This document shows, piece by piece, positions 1 to 64,000 of a stretch of DNA of 64,000 nt. The stretch's first letter is position 1; every line of letters starts with the position of its first letter. The DNA comes from Hippasteria phrygiana (Eukaryota; Echinodermata; Asteroidea; Valvatida; Goniasteridae). The translations under genes and the position numbers were made by a program. The notes below the pieces were generated by a model. The model worked only from the letters and a program-made list of their open reading frames with translations, was not told the origin of the DNA and made no database searches. The stretch is taken from assembly GCA_037893225.1 (NCBI GenBank), contig JAZGUH010000375.1, positions 620,001 through 684,000 on the forward strand. Direction: 5' to 3'.

Positions 1-50
1 CAAAACAAAACAAAACAATACAAAAGAAAAGCCTAAAACATGCAGTTCTT

Positions 51-123
51 CGCCCGGTATGGGACTTGAACCCATGACCCTCAGATTAAAAGTCTGATGC
101 TCTACCGACTGAGCTAACCGGGC
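51..123 (-). tRNA. tRNA-Lys-TTT: tRNA-Lys (anticodon UUU), copy 1
   Basis: Cytosolic lysine tRNA decoding AAA/AAG, transcribed by Pol III. The 73-nt molecule folds perfectly: 7-bp acceptor GCCCGGT/ACCGGGC, D-stem GCTC/GAGC, anticodon stem TCAGA/TCTGA with loop CTTTTAA (U33 present, anticodon at 88-90), variable GGGTC, T-stem ATGGG/CCCAT, discriminator G73. The A box (TAGCTCAGTCGG) and B box (GGTTCAAGTCC) are intact. There is no intron and no encoded CCA. On the gene strand a TTTT run lies about 10 nt past the 3' end and further T-runs follow. This copy serves as the array consensus. Confidence 0.97.
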
Positions 124-930
124 CCTGGAAGGTGTACGGTGGACCGATTTCAAGCCATTTTCCTTCAACAGAGCGTGTAAGTCTCGCGATATCACAACTT
201 TTCATCACTAGATATTGGTAAGGTCTTGGTACGAAACACTAACTAGTTTATTGACGGACCATATTATTAACAGCAAAGCTGTAGCGTGAAGTCTTAGCAG
301 CTAGAACTGTGATTGGAAACTACAGCTAGTGTAAGTAGTATTAATTCAAGTGTATTTGGTGTACCATCAAAAACATCTCTTAAACTTCTTAAATATTTGT
401 TAGAGCTGTGAGACATTTCTCAATTATTAAAAATATCTATAAACCATTTAGAGATATCTCGACTGCATCTATTTCACGATATCTGTAATTAAACATTTGA
501 AGCTGTACTTGTATGATGCAAAATAATTTCATCAAAAATGACGCCGCGTGCAGCTCCTTGGACGAATCCGACCAAGTTTATATTTGCAGGATGAATGTGG
601 TCATGATAGGTGGTCATCCGCATCTGTAAAGTGGCACATGCTTTGTATGACTACAAGCATTGACTATTCATCTGTAGCGATATTTTCAAGCCACAAAGAA
701 CAATCATTACATGACAGATTGCATGGTATCAGCTGAGAACTTGAGAAGCTTTCGGCCTTGTTGTTGTTGTTGTTGTCGTTAAGTTGTTGTCACCGTTGTT
801 GTTCTTGGCACGCGGATCAGAAAACTTTACTCCGGGTGAAACACATGATTATTCAGAACGTTTACACAATGAATGTGGGGATGACTTTCCCAATAACTAT
901 ATTCAAACTTCCAGCGTTGGTTTTACAGAG
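124..930. other. Representative Lys-Tyr divergent spacer, no gene recognised
   Basis: An AT-rich spacer of ~805 bp recurs between every Lys and the following Tyr. Visible elements are an inverted repeat AGCTGTAG...CTACAGCT near 279-328, a perfect 10-bp palindrome GAGATATCTC near 450-459, a (GTT)n tract near 760-778 and a TATATT motif about 30 bp before the Tyr gene. Short open frames run through it and into the tRNAs, but they show no coding signal. I recognised no snRNA, 5S rRNA or other RNA gene in it. Confidence 0.7.
758..778. repeat. GTT trinucleotide tract
   Basis: A short TTG/GTT run followed by GTCGTTAAG. Two main length alleles occur across the array, differing by 6 bp: the longer here and at 3093, 4237 and 11213, the shorter at 1930, 10052 and 12380. 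The length is shared by units of the same family. Confidence 0.85.
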
Positions 931-1012
931 CCTTCGATAGCTCAGTTGGTAGAGCGATGGACTGTAGTGTTAAGAAATCCATAGGTCGCTGGTTTGAATC
1001 CGGCTCGAAAGA
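931..1012 (+). pseudogene. tRNA-Tyr (GUA), degenerate copy 1
   Basis: Tyr copy with a 9-nt instead of 10-nt intron. C56 is changed to T inside the B box (GGTTTGAATCC), which loses the G19-C56 tertiary pair and weakens TFIIIC binding. G71 is changed to A, breaking pair 2-71 of the acceptor. G27 is changed to A, which by itself improves pair 27-43. A T5 run follows. The same combination recurs at 7893, so the lesion has been duplicated. Probably non-functional. Confidence 0.75.
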
Positions 1013-1217
1013 AATTTTTCTTTCATCGAATTCCAATACTTTGAAAAGAGAATCGCGCTAAAGTGAAGTGAAGTGCCTCATGATTTATCTTTTAAACCCT
1101 TAATTTTTTGAGGATATCTGGAAAATTTGCGAGATTCTCCACATTGACCAATTGCTTTCAACTCAAATAGAACAAAACAAAACAATACAAAAGAAAAGCC
1201 TAAAACATGCAGTTCTT

Positions 1218-1290
1218 CGCCCGGTATGGGACTTGAACCCATGACCCTCAGATTAAAAGTCTGATGCTCTACCGACTGAGCTAACCGGGC
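1218..1290 (-). tRNA. tRNA-Lys-TTT: tRNA-Lys (UUU), copy 2
   Basis: Consensus sequence throughout. The 5' flank differs by one base (CTAGAAGG in place of CTGGAAGG on the plus strand). Confidence 0.95.
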
Positions 1291-2095
1291 CCTAGAAGGT
1301 GTACGGTGGACCGATTTCAAGCCATTTTCCTTCAACAGAGCGTGTAAGTCTCGCGATATCACAACTTTTCATCACTAGATATTGGTAAGGTCTTGGTACG
1401 AAACACTAACTAGTTTATTGACGGACCATATTATTAACAGCAAAGCTGTAGCGTGAAGTCTTAGCAGCTAGAACTGCGATTGGAAACTACAGCTAGTGTA
1501 ATTAGTATTAATTCAAGTATATTTGGTGTACCATCAAAAACATCTCTTAAACTTCTTTAATATTTGTTAGAGCTGTGAGATATTTCTCAATTATTAAAAA
1601 TATCTATAAACCATTTAGAGATATCTCGACTGCATCTATTTCACGATATCTGTAATTAAACATTTGAAGCTGTACCTGTATGATGCAAAATAATTTCATC
1701 AAAAATGACGCCGCGTGCAGCTCCAATGGACGAATCCGACCAAGTTTTTATTATTTGCAGGATGAATGTGGTCATGATAGGTGGTCATCCGCATCTGTAA
1801 AGTGGCACATGCTTTGTATGACTACAAGCATTGACTATTCATCTGTAGCGATATTTTCAAGCCACAAAGAACAATCATTACATGACAGATTGCATGGTAT
1901 CAGCTGAGAACTTGAGAAGCTTTCGGCCTTGTTGTTGTTGTCGTTAAGTTGTTGTCACCGTTGTTGTTCTTGGCACGCGGATCAGAAAACTCTACTCCGG
2001 GTAAAACACATGATTATTCAGAACGTTTACACAATGAATGTGGGGATGACTTTCCCAATAACTATATTCAAACTTCCAGCGTTGGTTTAACAGAG

Positions 2096-2178
2096 CCTTC
2101 GATAGCTCAGTTGGTAGAGCGGTGGACTGTAGTGTTAAAGAAATCCATAGGTCGCTGGTTCGAATCCGGCTCGAAGGA
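2096..2178 (+). tRNA. tRNA-Tyr-GTA: tRNA-Tyr (GUA) with 10-nt intron, copy 2
   Basis: Cytosolic tyrosine tRNA decoding UAC/UAU. Exons give acceptor CCTTCGA/TCGAAGG, D-stem GCTC/GAGC, anticodon stem GTGGA/TCCAT, loop CTGTAGA, variable AGGTC, T-stem GCTGG/CCGGC and A73; every stem pairs (27-43 is G-U). C1:G72 and A73 are the eukaryotic TyrRS identity elements. The intron TGTTAAAGAA (2133-2142) sits after G37, the usual eukaryotic splice site, and must be removed by tRNA endonuclease and ligase. The A box (TAGCTCAGTTGG) and B box (GGTTCGAATCC) are perfect. A T7 run starts 2 nt past A73. The next Lys gene converges on it 207 bp away. Confidence 0.97.
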
Positions 2179-2385
2179 ATTTTTTTCTTTCATCGAATTC
2201 CAATACTTTGAAAAGAGAATCGCGCCAAAGTGAAGTGCCTCATGATTTATCTTTTTAAAACCTTAATTTTTTGAGGATGTCTGGAAAATTTGCGAGATTC
2301 TCCACATTGACCAATTGCTTTCAACTCAAATAGAACAAAACAAAACAAAACAATACAAAAGAAAAGCCTAAAACATGCAGTTCTT

Positions 2386-2458
2386 CGCCCGGTATGGGAC
2401 TTGAACCCATGACCCTCAGATTAAAAGTCTGATTCTCTACCGACTGAGCTAACCGGGC
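2386..2458 (-). tRNA. tRNA-Lys-TTT: tRNA-Lys (UUU), copy 3, D-stem variant
   Basis: C25 is changed to A, so pair 10-25 at the end of the D-stem is lost; everything else is consensus. The same change occurs at 49505 and 58790. The A-rich 3' flank has an extra CAAAA repeat. May still function. Confidence 0.85.
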
Positions 2459-3265
2459 CCTGGAAGGTGTACGGTGGACCGATTTCAAGCCATTTTCCTT
2501 CAACAGAGCGTGTAAGTCTCGCGATATCACAACTTTTCATCACTAGATATTGGTAAGGTCTTGGTACGAAACACTAACTAGTTTATTGACGGACCATATT
2601 ATTAACAGCAAAGCTGTAGCGTGAAGTCTTAGCAGCTAGAACTGTGATTGGAAACTACAGCTAGTGTAAGTAGTATTAATTCAAGTGTATTTGGTGTACC
2701 ATCAAAAACATCTCTTAAACTTCTTAAATATTTGTTAGAGCTGTGAGACATTTCTCAATTATTAAAAATATCTATAAACCATTTAGAGATATCTCGACTG
2801 CATCTATTTCACGATATCTGTAATTAAACATTTCAAGCTGTACTTGTATGATGCAAAATAATTTCATCAAAAATGACGCCGCGTGCAGCTCCTTGGACGA
2901 ATCCGACCAAGTTTATATTTGCAGGATGAATGTGGTCATGATAGGTGGTCATCCGCATCTGTAAAGTGGCACATGCTTTGTATGACTACAAGCATTGACT
3001 ATTCATCTGTAGCGATATTTTCAAGCCACAAAGAACAATCATTACATGACAGATTGCATGGTATCAGCTGAGAACTTGAGAAGCTTTCGGCCTTGTTGTT
3101 GTTGTTGTTGTCGTTAAGTTGTTGTCACCGTTGTTGTTCTTGGCACGCGGATCAGAAAACTCTACTCCGGGTGAAACACATGATTATTCAGAACGTTTAC
3201 ACAATGAATGTGGGGATGACTTTCCCAATAACTATATTCAAACTTCCAGCGTGGGTTTTACAGAG

Positions 3266-11468: not shown

Positions 11469-11469
11469 A

Positions 11470-11657: not shown

Positions 11658-11669
11658 CATGCAGTTCTT

Positions 11670-14864: not shown

Positions 14865-14947
14865 CCTTCGATAGCTCAGTTGGTAGAGCGGTGGACTGTA
14901 GTGTTAAAGAAATCCATAGGTCGCTGGTTCGAATCCGGCTCGAAGGA
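14865..14947 (+). tRNA. tRNA-Tyr-GTA: tRNA-Tyr (GUA), copy 13
   Basis: Consensus gene. The flank GCCTCGTGAT (15004) marks the last Tyr unit before a Thr module and recurs after 18711, 27295 and 35879. Confidence 0.96.
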
Positions 14948-15149: not shown

Positions 15150-15222
15150 CGCCCGGTATGGGACTTGAACCCATGACCCTCAGATTAAAAGTCTGATGCT
15201 CTACCGACTGAGCTAACCGGGC
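15150..15222 (-). tRNA. tRNA-Lys-TTT: tRNA-Lys (UUU), copy 14
   Basis: Consensus gene with CAATAAC flank. The spacer after it lacks 15 bp between two GTA triplets (near 15435) and is then interrupted by Thr module 1. Confidence 0.96.
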
Positions 15223-15470
15223 CCTGGAAGGTGTACGGTGGACCGATTTCAAGCCATTTTCCTTCAACAGAGCGTGTAAGTCTCGCGATATCACAACTTT
15301 TCATCACTAGATATTGGTAAGGTCTTGGTACGAAACACTAACTAGTTTATTGACGGACCATATTATTAACAGCAAAGCTGTAGCGTGAAGTCTTAGCAGC
15401 TAGAACTGCGATTCGAAACTACAGCTAGTGTACGTATATTTGGTGTACCATCAAAAACATCTCTTAAACT

Positions 15471-15482
15471 TCTTTAATATTT
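15471..15482. repeat. Left 12-bp direct repeat flanking Thr module 1
   Basis: TCTTTAATATTT occurs here and again at 17008-17019 on the other side of the module. Uninterrupted spacers have it once. It looks like a target-site duplication. Confidence 0.8.
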
Positions 15483-15503
15483 TTTCAATGTGAACAAAGA
15501 AAC

Positions 15504-15576
15504 TGGCACGAGCGGGATTCGAACCTGCGACCTCCGGGTTACCGTACCGGCGCTCTACCAACTGAGCTATCTTGCC
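15504..15576 (-). tRNA. tRNA-Thr(GGU)-like gene, module 1 copy 1
   Basis: 73 nt with perfect A box (TAGCTCAGTTGG) and B box (GGTTCGAATCC) and A73. The fold is imperfect: A5-G68 in the acceptor, U31-C39 in the anticodon stem and A51-C63 in the T-stem are mismatched. Position 33 is C, where tRNAs have a near-invariant U. The anticodon GGU would read threonine codons, but eukaryotes normally use AGU (inosine) for this box and GGU-Thr is rare. No TTTT run follows closely on the gene strand, only TTTCTTTG. It may be a tRNA-derived repeat rather than a decoding tRNA. All full copies in the window have the same 73 bases. Confidence 0.6.
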
Positions 15577-15816
15577 CTATGTTGGCGGTCTCCCAAATTG
15601 TCAGTATCTTTGTTCGGGTGGGCGCTAGTCAGAAGTCATAAACCCAGAATGCCGTGTAGCCAGGGATCACACCCAATTTTACGATACAACCTGGGAAGCG
15701 ACATTGTGGAGATCACTCAATGAGGATACGACTTTTTAATATATAATACGTCACACAATCCACAAGGGAAACTGACTAGGTAAATTTGAATACATTTTCA
15801 ATGTGAACAAAGAAAC

Positions 15817-15889
15817 TGGCACGAGCGGGATTCGAACCTGCGACCTCCGGGTTACCGTACCGGCGCTCTACCAACTGAGCTATCTTGCC
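15817..15889 (-). tRNA. tRNA-Thr(GGU)-like gene, module 1 copy 2
   Basis: Identical 73 bases, 313 bp downstream of the first. The junction with unit 1 reads TAATATATAATACG, against TAATTTATAATACG between later units. Confidence 0.6.
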
Positions 15890-16129
15890 CTATGTTGGCG
15901 GTCTCCCAAATTGTCAGTATCTTTGTTCGGGTGGGCGCTAGTCAGAAGTCATAAACCCAGAATGCCGTGTAGCCAGGGATCACACCCAATTTTACGATAC
16001 AACCTGGGAAGCGACATTGTGGAGATCACTCAATGAGGATACGACTTTTTAATTTATAATACGTCACACAATCCACAAGGGAAACTGACTAGGTAAATTT
16101 GAATACATTTTCAATGTGAACAAAGAAAC

Positions 16130-16202
16130 TGGCACGAGCGGGATTCGAACCTGCGACCTCCGGGTTACCGTACCGGCGCTCTACCAACTGAGCTATCTTG
16201 CC
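16130..16202 (-). tRNA. tRNA-Thr(GGU)-like gene, module 1 copy 3
   Basis: Third direct 313-bp unit of the module, identical gene. Confidence 0.6.
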
Positions 16203-16442
16203 CTATGTTGGCGGTCTCCCAAATTGTCAGTATCTTTGTTCGGGTGGGCGCTAGTCAGAAGTCATAAACCCAGAATGCCGTGTAGCCAGGGATCACACCC
16301 AATTTTACGATACAACCTGGGAAGCGACATTGTGGAGATCACTCAATGAGGATACGACTTTTTAATTTATAATACGTCACACAATCCACAAGGGAAACTG
16401 ACTAGGTAAATTTGAATACATTTTCAATGTGAACAAAGAAAC

Positions 16443-16515
16443 TGGCACGAGCGGGATTCGAACCTGCGACCTCCGGGTTACCGTACCGGCGCTCTACCAA
16501 CTGAGCTATCTTGCC
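16443..16515 (-). tRNA. tRNA-Thr(GGU)-like gene, module 1 copy 4
   Basis: Left-arm copy of the palindrome, identical gene. Confidence 0.6.
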
Positions 16516-16863
16516 CTATGTTGGCGGTCTCCCAAATTGTCAGTATCTTTGTTCGGGTGGGCGCTAGTCAGAAGTCATAAACCCAGAATGCCGTGTAGCC
16601 AGGGATCACACCCAATTTTACGATACAACCTGGGAAGCGACATTGTGGAGATCACTCAATGAGGATACGACTTTTTAATTATTTAAAATAATTTTAATTA
16701 TTAAAAAGTCGTATCCTCATTGAGTGATCTCCACAATGTCGCTTCCCAGGTTGTATCGTAAAATTGGGTGTGATCCCTGGCTACACGGCATTCTGGGTTT
16801 ATGACTTCTCACTAGCGCCCACCCGAACAAAGATACTGACAATTTGGGAGACCGCCAACATAG

Positions 16864-16936
16864 GGCAAGATAGCTCAGTTGGTAGAGCGCCGGTACGGTA
16901 ACCCGGAGGTCGCAGGTTCGAATCCCGCTCGTGCCA
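16864..16936 (+). tRNA. tRNA-Thr(GGU)-like gene, module 1 copy 5 (inverted)
   Basis: Right-arm copy on the opposite strand. Its upstream side faces the left-arm copy across the palindrome centre, so the two are divergent. Confidence 0.6.
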
Positions 16937-17007
16937 GTTTCTTTGTTCACATTGAAAATGTATTCAAATTTACCTAGTCAGTTTCCCTTGTGGATTGTGT
17001 GACGTAT

Positions 17008-17019
17008 TCTTTAATATTT
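17008..17019. repeat. Right 12-bp direct repeat flanking Thr module 1
   Basis: TCTTTAATATTT, matching 15471-15482. The spacer resumes with GTTAGAGCTG directly after it. Confidence 0.8.
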
Positions 17020-17552
17020 GTTAGAGCTGTGAGATATTTCTCAATTATTAAAAATATCTATAAACCATTTAGAGATATCTCGACTGCATCTATTTCACGA
17101 TATCTGCAATTAAACATTTGAAGCTGTACCTGTATGATGCAAAATAATTTCATCAAAAATGACGCCGCGTGCAGCTCCAATGGACGAATCTGACCAAGTT
17201 TATATTTGCAGGATGAATGTGGTCATGATAGGTGGTCATCCGCATCTGTAAAGTGGCACATGCTTTGTATGACTACAAGCATTGACTATTCATCTTTAGC
17301 GATATTTTCAAGCCACAAAGAACAATCATTACATGACAGATTGCATGGTATAAGCTGAGAACTTGAGAAGCTTTCGGCCTTGTTGTTGTTGTTGTTGTCG
17401 TTAAGTTGTTGTCACCGTTGTTGTTCTTGGCACGCGGATCAGAAAACTCTACTCCGGGTAAAACACATGATTATTCAGAACGTTTACACAATGAATGTGG
17501 GGATGACTTTCCCAATAACTATATTCAAACTTCCAGCGTTGGTTTTACAGAG

Positions 17553-19068: not shown

Positions 19069-19349
19069 CCTGGAAGGTGTACGGTGGACCGATTTCAAGC
19101 CATTTTCCTTCAACAGAGCGTGTAAGTCTCGCGATATCACAACTTTTCATCACTAGATATTGGTAAGGTCTTGGTACGAAACACTAACTAGTTTATTGAC
19201 GGACCATATTATTAACAGCAAAGCTGTAGCGTGAAGTCTTAGCAGCTAGAACTGCGATTCGAAACTACAGCTAGTGTACGTATATTTGGTGTACCATCAA
19301 AAACATCTCTTAAACTTCTTTAATATTTTTTCAATGTGAACAAAGAAAC

Positions 19350-19422
19350 TGGCACGAGCGGGATTCGAACCTGCGACCTCCGGGTTACCGTACCGGCGCT
19401 CTACCAACTGAGCTATCTTGCC
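19350..19422 (-). tRNA. tRNA-Thr(GGU)-like gene, module 2 copy 1
   Basis: Identical to the module 1 genes; unit 1 junction carries ATATA. Confidence 0.6.
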
Positions 19423-19662
19423 CTATGTTGGCGGTCTCCCAAATTGTCAGTATCTTTGTTCGGGTGGGCGCTAGTCAGAAGTCATAAACCCAGAATGCCG
19501 TGTAGCCAGGGATCACACCCAATTTTACGATACAACCTGGGAAGCGACATTGTGGAGATCACTCAATGAGGATACGACTTTTTAATATATAATACGTCAC
19601 ACAATCCACAAGGGAAACTGACTAGGTAAATTTGAATACATTTTCAATGTGAACAAAGAAAC

Positions 19663-19735
19663 TGGCACGAGCGGGATTCGAACCTGCGACCTCCGGGTTA
19701 CCGTACCGGCGCTCTACCAACTGAGCTATCTTGCC
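19663..19735 (-). tRNA. tRNA-Thr(GGU)-like gene, module 2 copy 2
   Basis: Second 313-bp unit, identical gene. Confidence 0.6.
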
Positions 19736-19975
19736 CTATGTTGGCGGTCTCCCAAATTGTCAGTATCTTTGTTCGGGTGGGCGCTAGTCAGAAGTCATAA
19801 ACCCAGAATGCCGTGTAGCCAGGGATCACACCCAATTTTACGATACAACCTGGGAAGCGACATTGTGGAGATCACTCAATGAGGATACGACTTTTTAATT
19901 TATAATACGTCACACAATCCACAAGGGAAACTGACTAGGTAAATTTGAATACATTTTCAATGTGAACAAAGAAAC

Positions 19976-20048
19976 TGGCACGAGCGGGATTCGAACCTGC
20001 GACCTCCGGGTTACCGTACCGGCGCTCTACCAACTGAGCTATCTTGCC
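19976..20048 (-). tRNA. tRNA-Thr(GGU)-like gene, module 2 copy 3
   Basis: Third 313-bp unit, identical gene. Confidence 0.6.
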
Positions 20049-20288
20049 CTATGTTGGCGGTCTCCCAAATTGTCAGTATCTTTGTTCGGGTGGGCGCTAG
20101 TCAGAAGTCATAAACCCAGAATGCCGTGTAGCCAGGGATCACACCCAATTTTACGATACAACCTGGGAAGCGACATTGTGGAGATCACTCAATGAGGATA
20201 CGACTTTTTAATTTATAATACGTCACACAATCCACAAGGGAAACTGACTAGGTAAATTTGAATACATTTTCAATGTGAACAAAGAAAC

Positions 20289-20361
20289 TGGCACGAGCGG
20301 GATTCGAACCTGCGACCTCCGGGTTACCGTACCGGCGCTCTACCAACTGAGCTATCTTGCC
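20289..20361 (-). tRNA. tRNA-Thr(GGU)-like gene, module 2 copy 4
   Basis: Left palindrome arm, identical gene. Confidence 0.6.
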
Positions 20362-20709
20362 CTATGTTGGCGGTCTCCCAAATTGTCAGTATCTTTGTTC
20401 GGGTGGGCGCTAGTCAGAAGTCATAAACCCAGAATGCCGTGTAGCCAGGGATCACACCCAATTTTACGATACAACCTGGGAAGCGACATTGTGGAGATCA
20501 CTCAATGAGGATACGACTTTTTAATTATTTAAAATAATTTTAATTATTAAAAAGTCGTATCCTCATTGAGTGATCTCCACAATGTCGCTTCCCAGGTTGT
20601 ATCGTAAAATTGGGTGTGATCCCTGGCTACACGGCATTCTGGGTTTATGACTTCTCACTAGCGCCCACCCGAACAAAGATACTGACAATTTGGGAGACCG
20701 CCAACATAG

Positions 20710-20782
20710 GGCAAGATAGCTCAGTTGGTAGAGCGCCGGTACGGTAACCCGGAGGTCGCAGGTTCGAATCCCGCTCGTGCCA
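20710..20782 (+). tRNA. tRNA-Thr(GGU)-like gene, module 2 copy 5 (inverted)
   Basis: Right palindrome arm, identical gene. Confidence 0.6.
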
Positions 20783-21398
20783 GTTTCTTTGTTCACATTG
20801 AAAATGTATTCAAATTTACCTAGTCAGTTTCCCTTGTGGATTGTGTGACGTATTCTTTAATATTTGTTAGAGCTGTGAGATATTTCTCAATTATTAAAAA
20901 TATCTATAAACCATTTAGAGATATCTCGACTGCATCTATTTCACGATATCTGCAATTAAACATTTGAAGCTGTACCTGTATGATGCAAAATAATTTCATC
21001 AAAAATGACGCCGCGTGCAGCTCCAATGGACGAATCTGACCAAGTTTATATTTGCAGGATGAATGTGGTCATGATAGGTGGTCATCCGCATCTGTAAAGT
21101 GGCACATGCTTTGTATGACTACAAGCATTGACTATTCATCTTTAGCGATATTTTCAAGCCACAAAGAACAATCATTACATGACAGATTGCATGGTATAAG
21201 CTGAGAACTTGAGAAGCTTTCGGCCTTGTTGTTGTTGTTGTTGTCGTTAAGTTGTTGTCACCGTTGTTGTTCTTGGCACGCGGATCAGAAAACTCTACTC
21301 CGGGTAAAACACATGATTATTCAGAACGTTTACACAATGAATGTGGGGATGACTTTCCCAATAACTATATTCAAACTTCCAGCGTTGGTTTTACAGAG

Positions 21399-22913: not shown

Positions 22914-23188
22914 CCTGGAAGGTGTACGGTGGACCGATTTCAAGCCATTTTCCTTCAACAGAGCGTGTAAGTCTCGCGATATCAGAACTTTTCATCACTA
23001 GATATTGGTAAGGTCTTGGTACGAAACACTAACTAGTTTATTGACGGACCATATTATTAACAGCAAAGCTGTAGCGTGAAGTCTTAGCAGCTAGAACTGC
23101 GATTGGAAACTACAGCTAGTGTACGTAGTATTAATTCAAGTATATTTGGTGTACCATCAAAAACATCTCTTAAACTTCTTTAATATTT

Positions 23189-23270
23189 TTAATGTGAACA
23201 AAGAAACTGGCACGAGCGGGATTCGAACCTGCGACCTCCGGGTTCCCTTGTGGATTGTGTGACGTATTAT
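23189..23270. mobile_element. Collapsed Thr module remnant
   Basis: 82 bp flanked by the same TCTTTAATATTT direct repeat (23177-23188 and 23271-23282). It consists of the left end of a module up to mid-tRNA, joined directly to the right end (CCCTTGTGGATTGTG...). The right end keeps GACGTATTAT, three bases more than modules 1-4. Confidence 0.75.
23208..23244 (-). pseudogene. tRNA-Thr-like 3' half fragment
   Basis: Keeps 37 bp, from A73 to the anticodon-loop edge, including the B box. The A box is deleted, so it should not be transcribed alone. Confidence 0.8.
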
Positions 23271-23809
23271 TCTTTAATATTTGTTAGAGCTGTGAGGTAT
23301 TTCTCAATTATTAAAAATATCTATAAACCATTTAGAGATATCTCGACTGCATCTATTTCACGATATCTGTAATTAAACATTTGAAGCTGTACCTGTATGA
23401 TGCAAAATAATTTCATCAAAAATGACGCCGCGTGCAGCTCCAATGGACGAATCCGACCAAGTTTATATTTGCAGGATGAATGTGGTCATGATAGGTGGTC
23501 ATCCGCATCTGTAAAGTGGCACATGCTTTGTATGACTACAAGCATTGACTATTCATCTGTAGCGATATTTTCAAGCCACAAAGAACAATCATTACATGAC
23601 AGATTGCATGGTATCAGCTGAGAACTTGAGAAGCTTTCGGCCTTGTTGTTGTTGTCGTTAAGTTGTTGTCACCGTTGTTGTTCTCGGCACGCGGATCAGA
23701 AAACTCTACTCCGGGTAAAACACATGATTATTCAGAACGTTTACACAATGAATGTGGGGATGACTTTTCCAATAACTATATTCAAACTTCCAGCGTTGGT
23801 TTTACAGAG

Positions 23810-27652: not shown

Positions 27653-27933
27653 CCTGGAAGGTGTACGGTGGACCGATTTCAAGCCATTTTCCTTCAACAG
27701 AGCGTGTAAGTCTCGCGATATCACAACTTTTCATCACTAGATATTGGTAAGGTCTTGGTACGAAACACTAACTAGTTTATTGACGGACCATATTATTAAC
27801 AGCAAAGCTGTAGCGTGAAGTCTTAGCAGCTAGAACTGCGATTCGAAACTACAGCTAGTGTACGTATATTTGGTGTACCATCAAAAACATCTCTTAAACT
27901 TCTTTAATATTTTTTCAATGTGAACAAAGAAAC

Positions 27934-28006
27934 TGGCACGAGCGGGATTCGAACCTGCGACCTCCGGGTTACCGTACCGGCGCTCTACCAACTGAGCTAT
28001 CTTGCC
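27934..28006 (-). tRNA. tRNA-Thr(GGU)-like gene, module 3 copy 1
   Basis: Identical gene; unit 1 with ATATA junction. Confidence 0.6.
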
Positions 28007-28246
28007 CTATGTTGGCGGTCTCCCAAATTGTCAGTATCTTTGTTCGGGTGGGCGCTAGTCAGAAGTCATAAACCCAGAATGCCGTGTAGCCAGGGATCAC
28101 ACCCAATTTTACGATACAACCTGGGAAGCGACATTGTGGAGATCACTCAATGAGGATACGACTTTTTAATATATAATACGTCACACAATCCACAAGGGAA
28201 ACTGACTAGGTAAATTTGAATACATTTTCAATGTGAACAAAGAAAC

Positions 28247-28319
28247 TGGCACGAGCGGGATTCGAACCTGCGACCTCCGGGTTACCGTACCGGCGCTCTA
28301 CCAACTGAGCTATCTTGCC
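28247..28319 (-). tRNA. tRNA-Thr(GGU)-like gene, module 3 copy 2
   Basis: Second 313-bp unit. Confidence 0.6.
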
Positions 28320-28559
28320 CTATGTTGGCGGTCTCCCAAATTGTCAGTATCTTTGTTCGGGTGGGCGCTAGTCAGAAGTCATAAACCCAGAATGCCGTGT
28401 AGCCAGGGATCACACCCAATTTTACGATACAACCTGGGAAGCGACATTGTGGAGATCACTCAATGAGGATACGACTTTTTAATTTATAATACGTCACACA
28501 ATCCACAAGGGAAACTGACTAGGTAAATTTGAATACATTTTCAATGTGAACAAAGAAAC

Positions 28560-28632
28560 TGGCACGAGCGGGATTCGAACCTGCGACCTCCGGGTTACCG
28601 TACCGGCGCTCTACCAACTGAGCTATCTTGCC
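28560..28632 (-). tRNA. tRNA-Thr(GGU)-like gene, module 3 copy 3
   Basis: Third 313-bp unit. Confidence 0.6.
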
Positions 28633-28872
28633 CTATGTTGGCGGTCTCCCAAATTGTCAGTATCTTTGTTCGGGTGGGCGCTAGTCAGAAGTCATAAACC
28701 CAGAATGCCGTGTAGCCAGGGATCACACCCAATTTTACGATACAACCTGGGAAGCGACATTGTGGAGATCACTCAATGAGGATACGACTTTTTAATTTAT
28801 AATACGTCACACAATCCACAAGGGAAACTGACTAGGTAAATTTGAATACATTTTCAATGTGAACAAAGAAAC

Positions 28873-28945
28873 TGGCACGAGCGGGATTCGAACCTGCGAC
28901 CTCCGGGTTACCGTACCGGCGCTCTACCAACTGAGCTATCTTGCC
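28873..28945 (-). tRNA. tRNA-Thr(GGU)-like gene, module 3 copy 4
   Basis: Left palindrome arm. Confidence 0.6.
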
Positions 28946-29293
28946 CTATGTTGGCGGTCTCCCAAATTGTCAGTATCTTTGTTCGGGTGGGCGCTAGTCA
29001 GAAGTCATAAACCCAGAATGCCGTGTAGCCAGGGATCACACCCAATTTTACGATACAACCTGGGAAGCGACATTGTGGAGATCACTCAATGAGGATACGA
29101 CTTTTTAATTATTTAAAATAATTTTAATTATTAAAAAGTCGTATCCTCATTGAGTGATCTCCACAATGTCGCTTCCCAGGTTGTATCGTAAAATTGGGTG
29201 TGATCCCTGGCTACACGGCATTCTGGGTTTATGACTTCTCACTAGCGCCCACCCGAACAAAGATACTGACAATTTGGGAGACCGCCAACATAG

Positions 29294-29366
29294 GGCAAGA
29301 TAGCTCAGTTGGTAGAGCGCCGGTACGGTAACCCGGAGGTCGCAGGTTCGAATCCCGCTCGTGCCA
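29294..29366 (+). tRNA. tRNA-Thr(GGU)-like gene, module 3 copy 5 (inverted)
   Basis: Right palindrome arm. Confidence 0.6.
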
Positions 29367-29982
29367 GTTTCTTTGTTCACATTGAAAATGTATTCAAATT
29401 TACCTAGTCAGTTTCCCTTGTGGATTGTGTGACGTATTCTTTAATATTTGTTAGAGCTGTGAGATATTTCTCAATTATTAAAAATATCTATAAACCATTT
29501 AGAGATATCTCGACTGCATCTATTTCACGATATCTGCAATTAAACATTTGAAGCTGTACCTGTATGATGCAAAATAATTTCATCAAAAATGACGCCGCGT
29601 GCAGCTCCAATGGACGAATCTGACCAAGTTTATATTTGCAGGATGAATGTGGTCATGATAGGTGGTCATCCGCATCTGTAAAGTGGCACATGCTTTGTAT
29701 GACTACAAGCATTGACTATTCATCTTTAGCGATATTTTCAAGCCACAAAGAACAATCATTACATGACAGATTGCATGGTATAAGCTGAGAACTTGAGAAG
29801 CTTTCGGCCTTGTTGTTGTTGTTGTTGTCGTTAAGTTGTTGTCACCGTTGTTGTTCTTGGCACGCGGATCAGAAAACTCTACTCCGGGTAAAACACATGA
29901 TTATTCAGAACGTTTACACAATGAATGTGGGGATGACTTTCCCAATAACTATATTCAAACTTCCAGCGTTGGTTTTACAGAG

Positions 29983-31497: not shown

Positions 31498-31772
31498 CCT
31501 GGAAGGTGTACGGTGGACCGATTTCAAGCCATTTTCCTTCAACAGAGCGTGTAAGTCTCGCGATATCAGAACTTTTCATCACTAGATATTGGTAAGGTCT
31601 TGGTACGAAACACTAACTAGTTTATTGACGGACCATATTATTAACAGCAAAGCTGTAGCGTGAAGTCTTAGCAGCTAGAACTGCGATTGGAAACTACAGC
31701 TAGTGTACGTAGTATTAATTCAAGTATATTTGGTGTACCATCAAAAACATCTCTTAAACTTCTTTAATATTT

Positions 31773-31854
31773 TTAATGTGAACAAAGAAACTGGCACGAG
31801 CGGGATTCGAACCTGCGACCTCCGGGTTCCCTTGTGGATTGTGTGACGTATTAT
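31773..31854. mobile_element. Collapsed Thr module remnant, second copy
   Basis: Same 82-bp remnant as at 23189, copied with the higher-order unit. Confidence 0.75.
31792..31828 (-). pseudogene. tRNA-Thr-like 3' half fragment, second copy
   Basis: 37-bp 3' half with B box and no A box. Confidence 0.8.
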
Positions 31855-32393
31855 TCTTTAATATTTGTTAGAGCTGTGAGGTATTTCTCAATTATTAAAA
31901 ATATCTATAAACCATTTAGAGATATCTCGACTGCATCTATTTCACGATATCTGTAATTAAACATTTGAAGCTGTACCTGTATGATGCAAAATAATTTCAT
32001 CAAAAATGACGCCGCGTGCAGCTCCAATGGACGAATCCGACCAAGTTTATATTTGCAGGATGAATGTGGTCATGATAGGTGGTCATCCGCATCTGTAAAG
32101 TGGCACATGCTTTGTATGACTACAAGCATTGACTATTCATCTGTAGCGATATTTTCAAGCCACAAAGAACAATCATTACATGACAGATTGCATGGTATCA
32201 GCTGAGAACTTGAGAAGCTTTCGGCCTTGTTGTTGTTGTCGTTAAGTTGTTGTCACCGTTGTTGTTCTCGGCACGCGGATCAGAAAACTCTACTCCGGGT
32301 AAAACACATGATTATTCAGAACGTTTACACAATGAATGTGGGGATGACTTTTCCAATAACTATATTCAAACTTCCAGCGTTGGTTTTACAGAG

Positions 32394-36236: not shown

Positions 36237-36517
36237 CCTGGAAGGTGTACGGTGGACCGATTTCAAGCCATTTTCCTTCAACAGAGCGTGTAAGTCTCGC
36301 GATATCACAACTTTTCATCACTAGATATTGGTAAGGTCTTGGTACGAAACACTAACTAGTTTATTGACGGACCATATTATTAACAGCAAAGCTGTAGCGT
36401 GAAGTCTTAGCAGCTAGAACTGCGATTCGAAACTACAGCTAGTGTACGTATATTTGGTGTACCATCAAAAACATCTCTTAAACTTCTTTAATATTTTTTC
36501 AATGTGAACAAAGAAAC

Positions 36518-36590
36518 TGGCACGAGCGGGATTCGAACCTGCGACCTCCGGGTTACCGTACCGGCGCTCTACCAACTGAGCTATCTTGCC
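36518..36590 (-). tRNA. tRNA-Thr(GGU)-like gene, module 4 copy 1
   Basis: Identical gene; unit 1 with ATATA junction. Confidence 0.6.
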
Positions 36591-36830
36591 CTATGTTGGC
36601 GGTCTCCCAAATTGTCAGTATCTTTGTTCGGGTGGGCGCTAGTCAGAAGTCATAAACCCAGAATGCCGTGTAGCCAGGGATCACACCCAATTTTACGATA
36701 CAACCTGGGAAGCGACATTGTGGAGATCACTCAATGAGGATACGACTTTTTAATATATAATACGTCACACAATCCACAAGGGAAACTGACTAGGTAAATT
36801 TGAATACATTTTCAATGTGAACAAAGAAAC

Positions 36831-36903
36831 TGGCACGAGCGGGATTCGAACCTGCGACCTCCGGGTTACCGTACCGGCGCTCTACCAACTGAGCTATCTT
36901 GCC
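36831..36903 (-). tRNA. tRNA-Thr(GGU)-like gene, module 4 copy 2
   Basis: Identical gene; private substitution in its upstream flank near 36959. Confidence 0.6.
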
Positions 36904-37143
36904 CTATGTTGGCGGTCTCCCAAATTGTCAGTATCTTTGTTCGGGTGGGCGCTAGTCACAAGTCATAAACCCAGAATGCCGTGTAGCCAGGGATCACACC
37001 CAATTTTACGATACAACCTGGGAAGCGACATTGTGGAGATCACTCAATGAGGATACGACTTTTTAATTTATAATACGTCACACAATCCACAAGGGAAACT
37101 GACTAGGTAAATTTGAATACATTTTCAATGTGAACAAAGAAAC

Positions 37144-37216
37144 TGGCACGAGCGGGATTCGAACCTGCGACCTCCGGGTTACCGTACCGGCGCTCTACCA
37201 ACTGAGCTATCTTGCC
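37144..37216 (-). tRNA. tRNA-Thr(GGU)-like gene, module 4 copy 3
   Basis: Third 313-bp unit. Confidence 0.6.
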
Positions 37217-37456
37217 CTATGTTGGCGGTCTCCCAAATTGTCAGTATCTTTGTTCGGGTGGGCGCTAGTCAGAAGTCATAAACCCAGAATGCCGTGTAGC
37301 CAGGGATCACACCCAATTTTACGATACAACCTGGGAAGCGACATTGTGGAGATCACTCAATGAGGATACGACTTTTTAATTTATAATACGTCACACAATC
37401 CACAAGGGAAACTGACTAGGTAAATTTGAATACATTTTCAATGTGAACAAAGAAAC

Positions 37457-37529
37457 TGGCACGAGCGGGATTCGAACCTGCGACCTCCGGGTTACCGTAC
37501 CGGCGCTCTACCAACTGAGCTATCTTGCC
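37457..37529 (-). tRNA. tRNA-Thr(GGU)-like gene, module 4 copy 4
   Basis: Left palindrome arm. Confidence 0.6.
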
Positions 37530-37877
37530 CTATGTTGGCGGTCTCCCAAATTGTCAGTATCTTTGTTCGGGTGGGCGCTAGTCAGAAGTCATAAACCCAG
37601 AATGCCGTGTAGCCAGGGATCACACCCAATTTTACGATACAACCTGGGAAGCGACATTGTGGAGATCACTCAATGAGGATACGACTTTTTAATTATTTAA
37701 AATAATTTTAATTATTAAAAAGTCGTATCCTCATTGAGTGATCTCCACAATGTCGCTTCCCAGGTTGTATCGTAAAATTGGGTGTGATCCCTGGCTACAC
37801 GGCATTCTGGGTTTATGACTTCTCACTAGCGCCCACCCGAACAAAGATACTGACAATTTGGGAGACCGCCAACATAG

Positions 37878-37950
37878 GGCAAGATAGCTCAGTTGGTAGA
37901 GCGCCGGTACGGTAACCCGGAGGTCGCAGGTTCGAATCCCGCTCGTGCCA
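37878..37950 (+). tRNA. tRNA-Thr(GGU)-like gene, module 4 copy 5 (inverted)
   Basis: Right palindrome arm. Confidence 0.6.
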
Positions 37951-38566
37951 GTTTCTTTGTTCACATTGAAAATGTATTCAAATTTACCTAGTCAGTTTCC
38001 CTTGTGGATTGTGTGACGTATTCTTTAATATTTGTTAGAGCTGTGAGATATTTCTCAATTATTAAAAATATCTATAAACCATTTAGAGATATCTCGACTG
38101 CATCTATTTCACGATATCTGCAATTAAACATTTGAAGCTGTACCTGTATGATGCAAAATAATTTCATCAAAAATGACGCCGCGTGCAGCTCCAATGGACG
38201 AATCTGACCAAGTTTATATTTGCAGGATGAATGTGGTCATGATAGGTGGTCATCCGCATCTGTAAAGTGGCACATGCTTTGTATGACTACAAGCATTGAC
38301 TATTCATCTTTAGCGATATTTTCAAGCCACAAAGAACAATCATTACATGACAGATTGCATGGTATAAGCTGAGAACTTGAGAAGCTTTCGGCCTTGTTGT
38401 TGTTGTTGTTGTCGTTAAGTTGTTGTCACCGTTGTTGTTCTTGGCACGCGGATCAGAAAACTCTACTCCGGGTAAAACACATGATTATTCAGAACGTTTA
38501 CACAATGAATGTGGGGATGACTTTCCCAATAACTATATTCAAACTTCCAGCGTTGGTTTTACAGAG

Positions 38567-39133: not shown

Positions 39134-39147
39134 GTAGTATTAATTCA
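39134..39147. repeat. Left 14-bp direct repeat flanking Thr module 5
   Basis: GTAGTATTAATTCA occurs here and at 40505-40518; uninterrupted spacers have it once. The site is different from that of modules 1-4, about 65 bp closer to the Lys gene. Confidence 0.8.
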
Positions 39148-39169
39148 TTTTCAAAGTGAACAAAGAAAC

Positions 39170-39242
39170 TGGCACGAGCGGGATTCGAACCTGCGACCTC
39201 CGGGTTACCGTACCGGCGCTCTACCAACTGAGCTATCTTGCC
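39170..39242 (-). tRNA. tRNA-Thr(GGU)-like gene, module 5 copy 1
   Basis: Same 73 bases as modules 1-4 although the surrounding unit has diverged. Confidence 0.6.
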
Positions 39243-39482
39243 CTATGTTGGTGGTCTCCCAAATTGTCAGTATCTTTGTTCGAGTGGGCGCTAGTCAGAA
39301 GTCATAAACCCAGAATGCCGTGTAGCCAGGGATCACACCCAATTTTACGATACAACCTGGGAAGCGACATTGTGGAGATCACTCAATGAGGATACGACTT
39401 TTTAACTTATAATACGTCACACAATCCACAAGGGAAACTGACTAGGTAAATTTGAATACATTTTCAAAGTGAACAAAGAAAC

Positions 39483-39555
39483 TGGCACGAGCGGGATTCG
39501 AACCTGCGACCTCCGGGTTACCGTACCGGCGCTCTACCAACTGAGCTATCTTGCC
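39483..39555 (-). tRNA. tRNA-Thr(GGU)-like gene, module 5 copy 2
   Basis: Second direct unit. Confidence 0.6.
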
Positions 39556-39795
39556 CTATGTTGGTGGTCTCCCAAATTGTCAGTATCTTTGTTCGAGTGG
39601 GCGCTAGTCAGAAGTCATAAACCCAGAATGCCGTGTAGCCAGGGATCACACCCAATTTTACGATACAACCTGGGAAGCGACATTGTGGAGATCACTCAAT
39701 GAGGATACGACTTTTTAACTTATAATACGTCACACAATCCACAAGGGAAACTGACTAGGTAAATTTGAATACATTTTCAAAGTGAACAAAGAAAC

Positions 39796-39868
39796 TGGCA
39801 CGAGCGGGATTCGAACCTGCGACCTCCGGGTTACCGTACCGGCGCTCTACCAACTGAGCTATCTTGCC
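39796..39868 (-). tRNA. tRNA-Thr(GGU)-like gene, module 5 copy 3, truncated upstream
   Basis: The gene is complete, but only 37 bp of its own 5' flank remain before the inversion joint. Confidence 0.6.
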
Positions 39869-40054
39869 CTATGTTGGTGGTCTCCCAAATTGTCAGTATC
39901 TTTGTCCTCATTGAGTGATCTCCACAATGTCGCTTCCCAGGTTGTATCGTAAAATTGGGTGTGATCCCTGGCTACACGGCATTCTGGGTTTATGACTTCT
40001 GACTAGCGCCCACTCGAACAAAGATACTGACAATTTGGGAGACCACCAACATAG

Positions 40055-40127
40055 GGCAAGATAGCTCAGTTGGTAGAGCGCCGGTACGGTAACCCGGAGG
40101 TCGCAGGTTCGAATCCCGCTCGTGCCA
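40055..40127 (+). tRNA. tRNA-Thr(GGU)-like gene, module 5 copy 4 (inverted)
   Basis: First plus-strand unit after the inversion joint. Confidence 0.6.
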
Positions 40128-40367
40128 GTTTCTTTGTTCACTTTGAAAATGTATTCAAATTTACCTAGTCAGTTTCCCTTGTGGATTGTGTGACGTATTA
40201 TAAGTTAAAAAGTCGTATCCTCATTGAGTGATCTCCACAATGTCGCTTCCCAGGTTGTATCGTAAAATTGGGTGTGATCCCTGGCTACACGGCATTCTGG
40301 GTTTATGACTTCTGACTAGCGCCCACTCGAACAAAGATACTGACAATTTGGGAGACCACCAACATAG

Positions 40368-40440
40368 GGCAAGATAGCTCAGTTGGTAGAGCGCCGGTAC
40401 GGTAACCCGGAGGTCGCAGGTTCGAATCCCGCTCGTGCCA
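40368..40440 (+). tRNA. tRNA-Thr(GGU)-like gene, module 5 copy 5 (inverted)
   Basis: Second plus-strand unit, 313 bp on. Confidence 0.6.
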
Positions 40441-41101
40441 GTTTCTTTGTTCACTTTGAAAATGTATTCAAATTTACCTAGTCAGTTTCCCTTGTGGATT
40501 GTGTGTAGTATTAATTCAAGTATATTTGGTGTACCATCAAAAACATCTCTTAAACTTCTTTAATATTTGTTAGAGCTGTGAGATATTTCTCAATTATTAA
40601 AAATATCTATAAACCATTTAGAGATATCTCGACTGCATCTATTTCACGATATCTGTAATTAAACATTTGAAGCTGTACCTGTATGATGCAAAATAATTTC
40701 ATCAAAAATGACGCCGCGTGCAGCTCCAATGGACGAATCCGACCAAGTTTATATTTGCAGGATGAATGTGGTCATGATAGGTGGTCATCCGCATCTGTAA
40801 AGTGGCACATGCTTTGTATGACTACAAGCATCGACTATTCATCTGTAGCGATATTTTCAAGCCACAAAGAACAATCATTACATGACAGATTGCATGGTAT
40901 AAGCTGAGAACTTGAGAAGCTTTCGGCCTTGTTGTTGTTGTTGTTGTCGTTAAGTTGTTGTCACCGTTGTTGTTCTTGGCACGCGGATCAGAAAACTCTA
41001 CTCCGGGTAAAACACATGATTATTCAGAACGTTTACACAATGAATGTGGGGATGACTTTCCCAATAACTATATTCAAACTTCCAGCGTTGGTTTTACAGA
41101 G

Positions 41102-61125: not shown

Positions 61126-61198
61126 CGCCCGGCATGGGACTTGAACCCATGACCCTCAGATTAAAAGTCTGATGCTCTACCGACTGAGCTAACCGGGC
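61126..61198 (-). tRNA. tRNA-Lys-TTT: tRNA-Lys (UUU), copy 47
   Basis: A66G wobble as in 54173. Confidence 0.93.
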
Positions 61199-61991
61199 CC
61201 TGGAAGGTGTACGGTGGACCGATTTCAAGCCATTTTCCTTCAACAGAGCGTGTAAGTCTCGCGATATCACAACTTTTCATCACTAGATATTGATAAGGTC
61301 TTGGTACGAAACACTAACTAGTTTATTGACGGACCATATTATTAACAGCAAAGCTGTAGCGTGAAGTCTTAGCAGCTAGAACTGCGATTGGAAACTACAG
61401 CTAGTGTACGTATATTTGGTGTACCATCAAAAACATCTCTTAAACTTCTTTAATATTTGTTAGAGCTGTGAGATATTTCTCAATTATTAAAAATATCTAT
61501 AAACCATTTAGAGATATCTCGACTGCATCTATTTCACGATATCTGTAATTAAACATTTGAAGCTGTACCTGTATGATGCAAAATAATTTCATCAAAAATG
61601 ACGCCGCGTGCAGCTCCAATGGACGAATCCGACCAAGTTTATATTTGCAGGATGAATGTGGTCATGATAGGTGGTCATCCGCATCTGTAAAGTGGCACAT
61701 GCTTTGTATGACTACAAGCATTGACTATTCATCTGTAGCGATATTTTCAAGCCACAAAGAACAATCATTACATGACAGATTGCATGGTATAAGCTGAGAA
61801 CTTGAGAAGCTTTCGGCCTTGTTGTTGTTGTTGTTGTCGTTAAGTTGTTGTCACCGTTGTTGTTCTTGGCACGCGGATCAGAAAACTCTACTCCGGGTAA
61901 AACACATGATTATTCAGAACGTTTACACAATGAATGTGGGGATGACTTTCCCAATAACTATATTCAAACTTCCAGCGTTGGTTTTACAGAG

Positions 61992-62074
61992 CCTTCGATA
62001 GCTCAGTTGGTAGAGCGGTGGACTGTAGTGTTAAAGAAATCCATAGGTCGCTGGTTCGAATCCGGCTCGAAGGA
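61992..62074 (+). tRNA. tRNA-Tyr-GTA: tRNA-Tyr (GUA), copy 47
   Basis: Consensus gene. Confidence 0.96.
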
Positions 62075-62280
62075 ATTTTTTCTTTCATCGAATTCCAATA
62101 CTTTGAAAAGAGAATCGCGCCAAAGTGAAGTGCCTCATGAATTATCTTTTTAAAACCTTCATTTTTTGAGGATGTCTGGAAAATTTGCGAGATTCTCCAC
62201 ATTGACCAATTGCTTTCAACTCAAATAGAACAAAACAAAACAAAACAATACAAAAGAAAAGCCTAAAACATGCAGTTCTT

Positions 62281-62353
62281 CGCCCGGTATGGGACTTGAA
62301 CCCATGACCCTCAGATTAAAAGTCTGATGCTCTACCGACTGAGCTAACCGGGC
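62281..62353 (-). tRNA. tRNA-Lys-TTT: tRNA-Lys (UUU), copy 48
   Basis: Consensus gene; GGGCCTTGG flank. Confidence 0.96.
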
Positions 62354-63161
62354 CTTGGAAGGTGTACGGTGGACCGATTTCAAGCCATTTTCCTTCAACA
62401 GAGCGTGTAAGTCTCGCGATATCAGAACTTTTCATCACTAGATATTGGTAAGGTCTTGGTACGAAACACTAACTAGTTTATTGACGGACCATATTATTAA
62501 CAGCAAAGCTGTAGCGTGAAGTCTTAGCAGCTAGAACTGCGATTGGAAACTACAGCTAGTGTACGTAGTATTAATTCAAGTATATTTGGTGTACCATCAA
62601 AAACATCTCTTAAACTTCTTTAATATTTGTTAGAGCTGTGAGATATTTCTCAATTATTAAAAATATCTATAAACCATTTAGAGATATCTCGACTGCATCT
62701 ATTTCACGATATCTGTAATTAAACATTTGAAGCTGTACCTGTATGATGCAAAATAATTTCATCAAAAATGACGCCGCGTGCAGCTCCAATGGACGAATCC
62801 GACCAAGTTTATATTTGCAGGATGAATGTGGTCATGATAGGTGGTCATCCGCATCTGTAAAGTGGCACATGCTTTGTATGACTACAAGCATTGACTATTC
62901 ATCTGTAGCGATATTTTCAAGCCACAAAGAACAATCATTACATGACAGATTGCATGGTATAAGCTGAGAACTTGAGAAGCTTTCGGCCTTGTTGTTGTTG
63001 TTGTTGTCGTTAAGTTGTTGTCACCGTTGTTGTTCTTGGCACGCGGATCAGAAAACTCTACTCCGGGTGAAACACATGATTATTCAGAACGTTTACACAA
63101 TGAATGTGGGGATGACTTTCCCAATAACTATATTCAAACTTCCAGCGTTGCTTTTACAGAG

Positions 63162-63244
63162 CCTTCGATAGCTCAGTTGGTAGAGCGGTGGACTGTAGTG
63201 TTAAAGAAATCCATAGGTCGCTGGTTCGAATCCGGCTCGAAGGA
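63162..63244 (+). tRNA. tRNA-Tyr-GTA: tRNA-Tyr (GUA), copy 48
   Basis: Consensus gene, last Tyr in the window. Confidence 0.96.
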
Positions 63245-63446
63245 ATTTTTTCTTTCATCGAATTCCAATACTTTGAAAAGAGAATCGCGCCAAAGTGAAG
63301 TGCCTCATGATTTATCTTTTTAAAACCTTCATTTTTTGAGGATGTCTGGAAAATTTGCGAGATTCTCCACATTGACCAATTGCTTTCAACTCAAATAGAA
63401 CAAAACAAAACAATAACAAAAGAAAAGCCTAAAACATGCAGTTCTT

Positions 63447-63519
63447 CGCCCGGTATGGGACTTGAACCCATGACCCTCAGATTAAAAGTCTGATGCTCTA
63501 CCGACTGAGCTAACCGGGC
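63447..63519 (-). tRNA. tRNA-Lys-TTT: tRNA-Lys (UUU), copy 49
   Basis: Consensus gene; the 15-bp-deleted spacer after it runs to the window edge. Confidence 0.96.
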
Positions 63520-64000
63520 CCTGGAAGGTGTACGGTGGACCGATTTCAAGCCATTTTCCTTCAACAGAGCGTGTAAGTCTCGCGATATCACAACTTTTCA
63601 TCACTAGATATTGATAAGGTCTTGGTACGAAACACTAACTAGTTTATTGACGGACCATATTATTAACAGCAAAGCTGTAGCGTGAAGTCTTAGCAGCTAG
63701 AACTGCGATTGGAAACTACAGCTAGTGTACGTATATTTGGTGTACCATCAAAAACATCTCTTAAACTTCTTTAATATTTGTTAGAGCTGTGAGATATTTC
63801 TCAATTATTAAAAATATCTATAAACCATTTAGAGATATCTCGACTGCATCTATTTCACGATATCTGTAATTAAACATTTGAAGCTGTACCTGTATGATGC
63901 AAAATAATTTCATCAAAAATGACGCCGCGTGCAGCTCCAATGGACGAATCCGACCAAGTTTATATTTGCAGGATGAATGTGGTCATGATAGGTGGTCATC

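Follow-up and report, generated by a model that had tools for sequence, protein, structure and literature searches.

We show here that a stretch of the genome of the echinoderm Hippasteria phrygiana consists of two distinct parts: a tandem array of tRNA-Lys(UUU) and tRNA-Tyr(GUA) genes, and insertions of a dispersed mobile element whose head resembles a tRNA-Thr. The stretch analysed, hereafter the window, comprises 64,000 nucleotides of GenBank assembly GCA_037893225.1 (contig JAZGUH010000375.1, in short C375, positions 620001-684000; the genome has 944,056,580 bases on 1,285 contigs). The best explanation in our view, with a joint probability of roughly two thirds (0.68), is that the Lys/Tyr gene pairs are kept alike through unequal exchange and conversion, and that the Thr-like copies are Penelope-type insertions of a 313-bp non-coding retroelement. 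The mobile element is the more interesting half and the new part. The array itself is of a known kind, if a large one; mixed clusters of many transfer RNA (tRNA) genes have been published already.

A preliminary description of the window had counted 49 Lys(UUU), 48 Tyr(GUA) and 25 full Thr-like copies, about one per 525 bp, and had noted no protein gene. These numbers are exact. Rfam gives 122 tRNA matches above cut-off in the 64 kb, hence one per 525 bp, and a count by BLAST finds 49 Lys copies, all on the minus strand, 48 Tyr copies, all on the plus strand, and 25 full Thr-like copies plus two Thr-like fragments (23208-23247 and 31792-31831). ARAGORN reports 120 tRNA genes, with most Tyr copies labelled '???' and given a four-base anticodon; the Tyr genes are interrupted by a 10-nt intron. 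No open reading frame (ORF) of at least 120 aa is listed within the window (translation table 11), in agreement with the absence of a protein gene. The description had further seen a Lys/Tyr alternation broken up by inverted Thr-like modules. Its tandem array of two isotypes with intact-looking genes holds, but the Thr-like third is an inserted mobile element.

Thr-like copies are heads of a mobile element

The Thr-like third of the window is the tRNA-like head of a dispersed mobile element that was misread as a tRNA gene. We place it outside the gene design of the array because the copies are bounded by target-site duplications and because thousands of core matches occur elsewhere in the genome. 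The empty site TTCTTTAATATTT is present once in ordinary array units, and on both sides of modules 1-4 and of two fragments. Modules 1-4 are therefore a single insertion (insertion A) that was copied along with its unit. Module 5 (insertion B) occupies another site and has its own duplication, and it shares this site and sequence variants with an insertion at 615 kb of C375. Judged by this common site and these variants, insertion B and the 615-kb insertion are probably one event. The features are given in window coordinates, and strands refer to the heads:

15470..15482, left target-site duplication of insertion A copy 1, TTCTTTAATATTT, 13 bp
15483..17006, insertion A copy 1, 1,524 bp, with four Thr-like heads on the minus strand (15504, 15817, 16130, 16443) and one on the plus strand (16864), head-to-head
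17007..17019, right target-site duplication of insertion A copy 1, 13 bp
19316..20865, insertion A copy 2 including both duplications
27900..29449, insertion A copy 3 including both duplications
36484..38033, insertion A copy 4 including both duplications
23176..23282, internally shortened remnant at the insertion A site, with the same duplications
31760..31866, a further copy of this remnant, in a unit identical to that of the first
39134..39147, left target-site duplication of insertion B, GTAGTATTAATTCA, 14 bp
39148..40504, insertion B, 1,357 bp, with three Thr-like heads on the minus strand and two on the plus strand, at a different site of the unit from insertion A
40505..40518, right target-site duplication of insertion B, 14 bp

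The element unit is 313 bp long and has a GC content of 46.3%. Its Thr-like head carries A and B boxes by motif, a predicted promoter. The head lacks what we looked for in a tRNA-Thr gene, namely U33, paired stems and a terminator of its own: C33 stands in place of U33, the acceptor and anticodon stems contain one mismatch each, and TTTT on the sense strand is absent from all 15 complete 313-bp units of the window. Across the genome, the tRNA-like core has 9,268 matches with at most one mismatch (4,340 + 4,928), and a backward control has 0. The tail motif has 7,784 matches (3,364 + 4,420). A high-copy partner sharing only the tail region was rejected, since the tail is in no excess over the core; a low-copy partner would escape this comparison. 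The 240-bp spacer of the unit has at least 127 matches on 30 contigs (best 40 of 437 candidates), and the full-length ones are 99-100% identical. Among the matches listed (100 per list), core and tail neighbours on the same strand within 1 kb lie 313 bp apart (twice 312), and neighbours on opposite strands are arranged head-to-head in 10 and 14 cases and tail-to-tail in 0, with loci partly overlapping. Annotation should beware of this, as the 25 'tRNA-Thr genes' of the 64-kb window are heads of a mobile element, and so are thousands of matches across the genome.

Four exact patterns had 0 matches in a collection of viral contigs, and one exact pattern had 0 in a bacterial collection of genome contigs. 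Matches in a plasmid collection were short, covered at most 6% of the query and were taken as generic tRNA similarity. At the inversion junction of insertion A lies a near-perfect palindrome with 120-bp arms (about 16569-16809), and those of the other copies are centred near 20535, 29119 and 37703. The palindromes match microRNA families by chance, and they could be unstable.

Anatomy of the insertions

We compared 20 insertions of which both ends were read, namely 17 genomic loci, two insertions in the window and the one at 615 kb. Twenty-one genomic loci had been read, and L047, L050, L051 and L054, of which one end lay beyond the stretch read, were dropped. Counting insertion B and the 615-kb insertion as one, the number of independent events is probably 19. 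Direct repeats of 12-15 bp flank 18 of the 20 insertions, and ten of them measure 13 bp. Mismatched flank pairs reach 12 bp in only 3 of 380 cases, and in each of these both insertions lie within the array and have unit sequence in common. The 18 duplications have a GC content of 18%, compared to 39% in the outer flanks.

One outer end (E2) lies at unit position 91-97 in 19/20 insertions, directly beside the duplication, and at 87 in L055. A head-to-head inverted arrangement is found in 17/20 insertions, and here the outer end of the inverted arm falls at 126-144 in 14/17, at 142 and 150 in L053 and L059, which have short arms, and at 173 in L055. The two outer ends are usually about 32-50 nt apart in unit coordinates, and the inversion junctions differ between loci. 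By eye, a CAGTTTC(TT/CCC)TTGT-like sequence is seen at unit positions of about 72 and 113, one upstream of each outer end. These copies are possible candidates for a binding or priming signal.

A Penelope-type insertion signature

We propose reverse transcription from both cut strands on a multi-unit RNA, because the insertions combine a fixed end, 5' truncation, duplications, a near-fixed second start and inversion. Penelope-like elements resemble our element in several ways: their copies stand in tandem or partial tandem and have parts inverted head-to-head, one end carries a tail, and they show target-site duplications and AT-rich targets (PMC11167929, PMC3846280). For the anole Penelope it is described that both target strands are cut and extended and that reverse transcription begins at two internal sites adjacent to each other, which explains a genomic tail of 30-40 bp, and that cleavage favours AT-rich DNA (PMC11167929). 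The Penelope elements of A. vaga have inverted pseudo-LTRs (long terminal repeats, LTRs), may carry a 31-bp tail and show inversions of the head-to-head type (PMC3846280). Of the Penelope hallmarks, inverted and tandem copies with duplication and one-end tail are found in our element (17/20 inverted, 18/20 with duplication), whereas a frame for reverse transcriptase (RT) and GIY-YIG endonuclease is not, the window having no ORF as long as 120 aa. Compared to Penelope-like elements, our element also differs by its 313-bp non-coding unit, the tRNA-like head, the lack of a detectable hammerhead, longer duplications and a tail of about 32-50 nt. As it has no coding frame, it could only be a non-autonomous passenger. 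Given the lack of a coding frame and of sequence shared with the one Penelope compared, we refrain from classing it among the Penelope elements.

Penelope-type machinery is encoded in the same genome. An 825-aa open frame (L060:588-3062, contig C641) has RVT_1 and GIY-YIG domains and belongs to a Penelope-like element. GIY-YIG domains in long frames of the genome give at least 30 matches at E <=0.001 (best 150 of 1,100 candidates), and other frames bearing this domain are up to 841 aa long.

In the mechanism that we envisage, RNA polymerase III (Pol III) would start at the tRNA-like head. Without a T4 run on the sense strand the transcript would run through several tandem units, or the RNA might be circular. 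A Penelope-type RT/GIY-YIG endonuclease would then make cuts 12-15 nt apart on the two strands of AT-rich DNA, and complementary DNA (cDNA) would be primed from both cut strands at two RNA start sites, at unit positions of about 94 and usually about 141. Joining of the two cDNAs would yield a head-to-head inverted multimer with a 'tail' at one end and the target-site duplication around it. We thus read the element as a tRNA-headed passenger of Penelope-type machinery, similar to a short interspersed nuclear element (SINE), with Pol III as the presumed polymerase and the Penelope-type enzyme as the presumed helper. The evidence takes us as far as calling the element SINE-like and its insertion signature Penelope-type.

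If the element relies on Penelope machinery, SINE-like parasites are not limited to long interspersed nuclear elements (LINEs) as helpers. The retrozyme kind would in this case gain a ribozyme-less, tRNA-promoted branch, and the many near-identical copies would let the rules of Penelope-type priming be read from genomic scars. One may generalize to a class of Pol III-driven, SINE-like passengers that use a Penelope-type RT helper instead of a LINE. In such a class, the tRNA-like head would replace the retrozyme hammerhead as promoter and perhaps act as RNase P/Z processing signal for multimeric or circularised transcripts, and the two priming sites on the RNA would give rise to inverted multimers that seed new tandem tRNA-like arrays. 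This generalization is tentative, and we would sooner bet against it than for it. No report of a Penelope-mobilised, tRNA-headed tandem element was found in the open-access literature searched (titles and abstract openings).

Several points weigh against a Penelope-type origin. The genomic insertions derive from the best-scoring copies only (best 40 of 437 candidates) and are hence biased to young, long copies. L048 (7 bp) and L055 (5 bp) have no clear duplication, and the ends of L055 are atypical. No inversion is seen in L048, L056 and L058, which start at 131, 271 and 281. A hammerhead was found in the element neither by Rfam (E up to 5) nor by a core motif scan. No sequence shared between the L060 Penelope and the 313-bp unit was found (one Penelope region compared), which makes the helper role a putative one. 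In the anole Penelope the start site is the same for both strands (PMC11167929), whereas the inverted insertions described here each combine the two kinds of end. The duplications of A. vaga Penelope measure 8 and 9 bp compared to 12-15 bp here, and the authors of that study favour self-priming on an antisense template for the head-to-head inversions (PMC3846280).

Alternative origins of the element

Among the alternatives, a retrozyme-like element that moves as circular RNA survives best, although we consider it unlikely. Here, repeated copying round the circle alone would yield multimers. Metazoan retrozymes are described as 150-450-bp tandem repeats that contain a type I hammerhead and have a GC content below 50% and duplications of more than 4 bp (PMC7229834), and SMalpha of Schistosoma, a SINE-like repeat of 335 bp, also contains a hammerhead (PMC8490949). 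Our element is akin to both, as these are low-GC, tandem, SINE-like repeats of about 300-335 bp (PMC7229834, PMC7761336, PMC8490949), and its size, tandem runs, GC of 46% and duplications longer than 4 bp speak for a retrozyme (PMC7229834), as does the suspicion that retrozymes use Penelope machinery (PMC7761336). However, a hammerhead or other known ribozyme in the 313-bp unit was rejected, since the Rfam scan of 15480-17020 gave only tRNA above cut-off. Below the cut-offs the same scan returned hairpin families on the palindrome and weak matches to plastid elements. The hammerhead core motif is absent from both strands of one 313-bp unit. Metazoan retrozymes are moreover said to lack promoters (PMC7761336), whereas the 313-bp unit has a predicted tRNA-like one. 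Because the hammerhead test failed and a tRNA-like head is present, we do not file the element as a retrozyme. A circular RNA is compatible with the Penelope-type reading, in which it would be one form of the template.

An ordinary tRNA-derived SINE moved by a LINE, its inverted multimers stemming from twin priming on read-through RNA, ranks next and also appears improbable to us. Twin priming by LINEs yields inversions. With tRNA-derived SINEs our element has in common a tRNA-like head with A and B boxes, a high copy number and no coding capacity. The fixed 3' end, the 5' truncation in L048, L056 and L058, the 12-15-bp duplications and the inversion likewise fit twin priming. In contrast to such SINEs, it forms tandem head-to-head multimers, and the fixed end of none of the 20 insertions read carries an A-rich or simple-repeat tail. 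Furthermore, the inverted arm starts in a narrow zone at most loci and not just anywhere, and as many as 17/20 insertions are inverted, with their units in tandem.

We give very little credit to a satellite that contains a tRNA-like sequence and was dispersed through DNA circles or break repair: the 313-bp head-to-tail tandem units and the palindromes would suit it, but fixed outer ends with staggered-cut duplications in 18/20 insertions, and the exclusively outward, head-to-head orientation among the matches listed, do not. That the copies are genuine working tRNA-Thr(GGU) genes is hardly credible, as the ARAGORN label Thr(GGT), an Rfam score of 57.2 bits, above cut-off, and the identity of the 25 full copies over 73 nt are outweighed by C33, the mismatches in the acceptor and anticodon stems, the missing T4 terminator and the mobile distribution. 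A terminal-repeat retrotransposon in miniature of the Helenus type, a tRNA-derived LTR element, is likewise short and non-autonomous with a tRNA-like sequence, but is ruled out by the length of its duplications, 4-5 bp (PMC10886601) versus 12-15 bp in 18/20 insertions here.

The Lys/Tyr array

The 64-kb block of the preliminary description belongs to a real array, although its limits were drawn too narrowly. The Lys-Tyr array is about 300 kb long and extends on C375 from about 513.5 kb to at least 816 kb, with the sequence read up to 744 kb. In the window its features are:

1..64000, no strand assigned, interior of the Lys(-)/Tyr(+) tandem tRNA array (Rfam, BLAST count, unit comparison), which passes both window ends
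14865..14947, plus strand, example tRNA-Tyr(GUA), sequence common to 37/48 window copies, with a 10-nt intron at 14902-14911
15150..15222, minus strand, example tRNA-Lys(UUU), sequence common to 33/49 window copies

Matches to the Lys-Tyr spacer reach at least 779 kb (best 40 of 353 candidates, 40/40 on C375), and tRNA matches on C375 continue to 816,363. Other contigs also carry some tRNA matches. Between 480 and 744 kb of C375 there are 191 Lys copies, 131 of which are identical to the commonest form of the window, and 191 Tyr copies (113 identical). Genome-wide, an exact Tyr 5' half is matched 236 times in forward and 0 times in reverse orientation, and all of the 100 matches listed lie on C375. 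The regularity of the array is far beyond chance. An ordinary unit measures about 1,165 bp, with Tyr and Lys tail-to-tail about 200 bp apart and Lys and Tyr head-to-head about 808 bp apart. Ordinary Lys-to-Lys units in the window range from 1,144 to 1,254 bp and are near-identical, and five longer units hold the full Thr-like modules.

The farther apart two units lie in the array, the more they differ (0.9% for neighbours, 2.0% at lags of at least 129 units), and identical units are found again 8,584 bp apart in the window. Together, these observations form the pattern of unequal exchange and argue against a simple assembly error. At its left edge, at about 513.5-515.4 kb of C375, the array is degenerate and shows 79-97% identity to the unit. 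With about 300 kb of two tRNA isotypes, the array is a large, naturally occurring example of tRNA genes evolving in concert. Mixed clusters in Nematostella, zebrafish, Xenopus and Arabidopsis (SYY) likewise comprise tens to hundreds of tRNA genes in mixed-isotype repeats, and clusters of fifty and more members are on record (PMC2888827, PMC12308677). In contrast to these, only Lys and Tyr are found here, over about 300 kb on one contig and with mobile-element insertions. Lys and Tyr are also opposite in orientation, whereas most neighbouring tRNA pairs in a survey are parallel (PMC2888827).

The array most likely provides Lys and Tyr tRNAs in bulk. We expect such expression because the common Lys and Tyr forms have A and B boxes by motif, paired stems and a cloverleaf, and because each window copy is followed by a T-run terminator: a T4 run starts 10-12 nt past 49/49 Lys genes and 1-2 nt past 48/48 Tyr genes. 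In appearance the sequences are similar to metazoan tRNAs. Two points count against a bulk supply. A tandem tRNA array need not be active: in most tissues the SYY cluster of Arabidopsis is silent (PMC12308677). Furthermore, the Lys and Tyr gene columns are no less variable than the spacers (15/146 versus 80/1,009 variable columns, p = 0.33; 43/48 units compared, the 5 long units with full modules being dropped). Stronger purifying selection on the tRNA genes than on the spacer was rejected on this ground, and single gene copies thus look no more constrained than spacers.

Several Tyr copies of the array between 480 and 744 kb of C375 have an 82-nt form with an intron one base shorter (11 and 7 copies). 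Diverged, broken unit pieces make up C375:513,510-515,424, as expected where exchange is rare. Further out on the left flank, at about 499,900-501,300 and 510,200-510,900 of C375, there are long stretches of simple repeats in which both strands have open frames.

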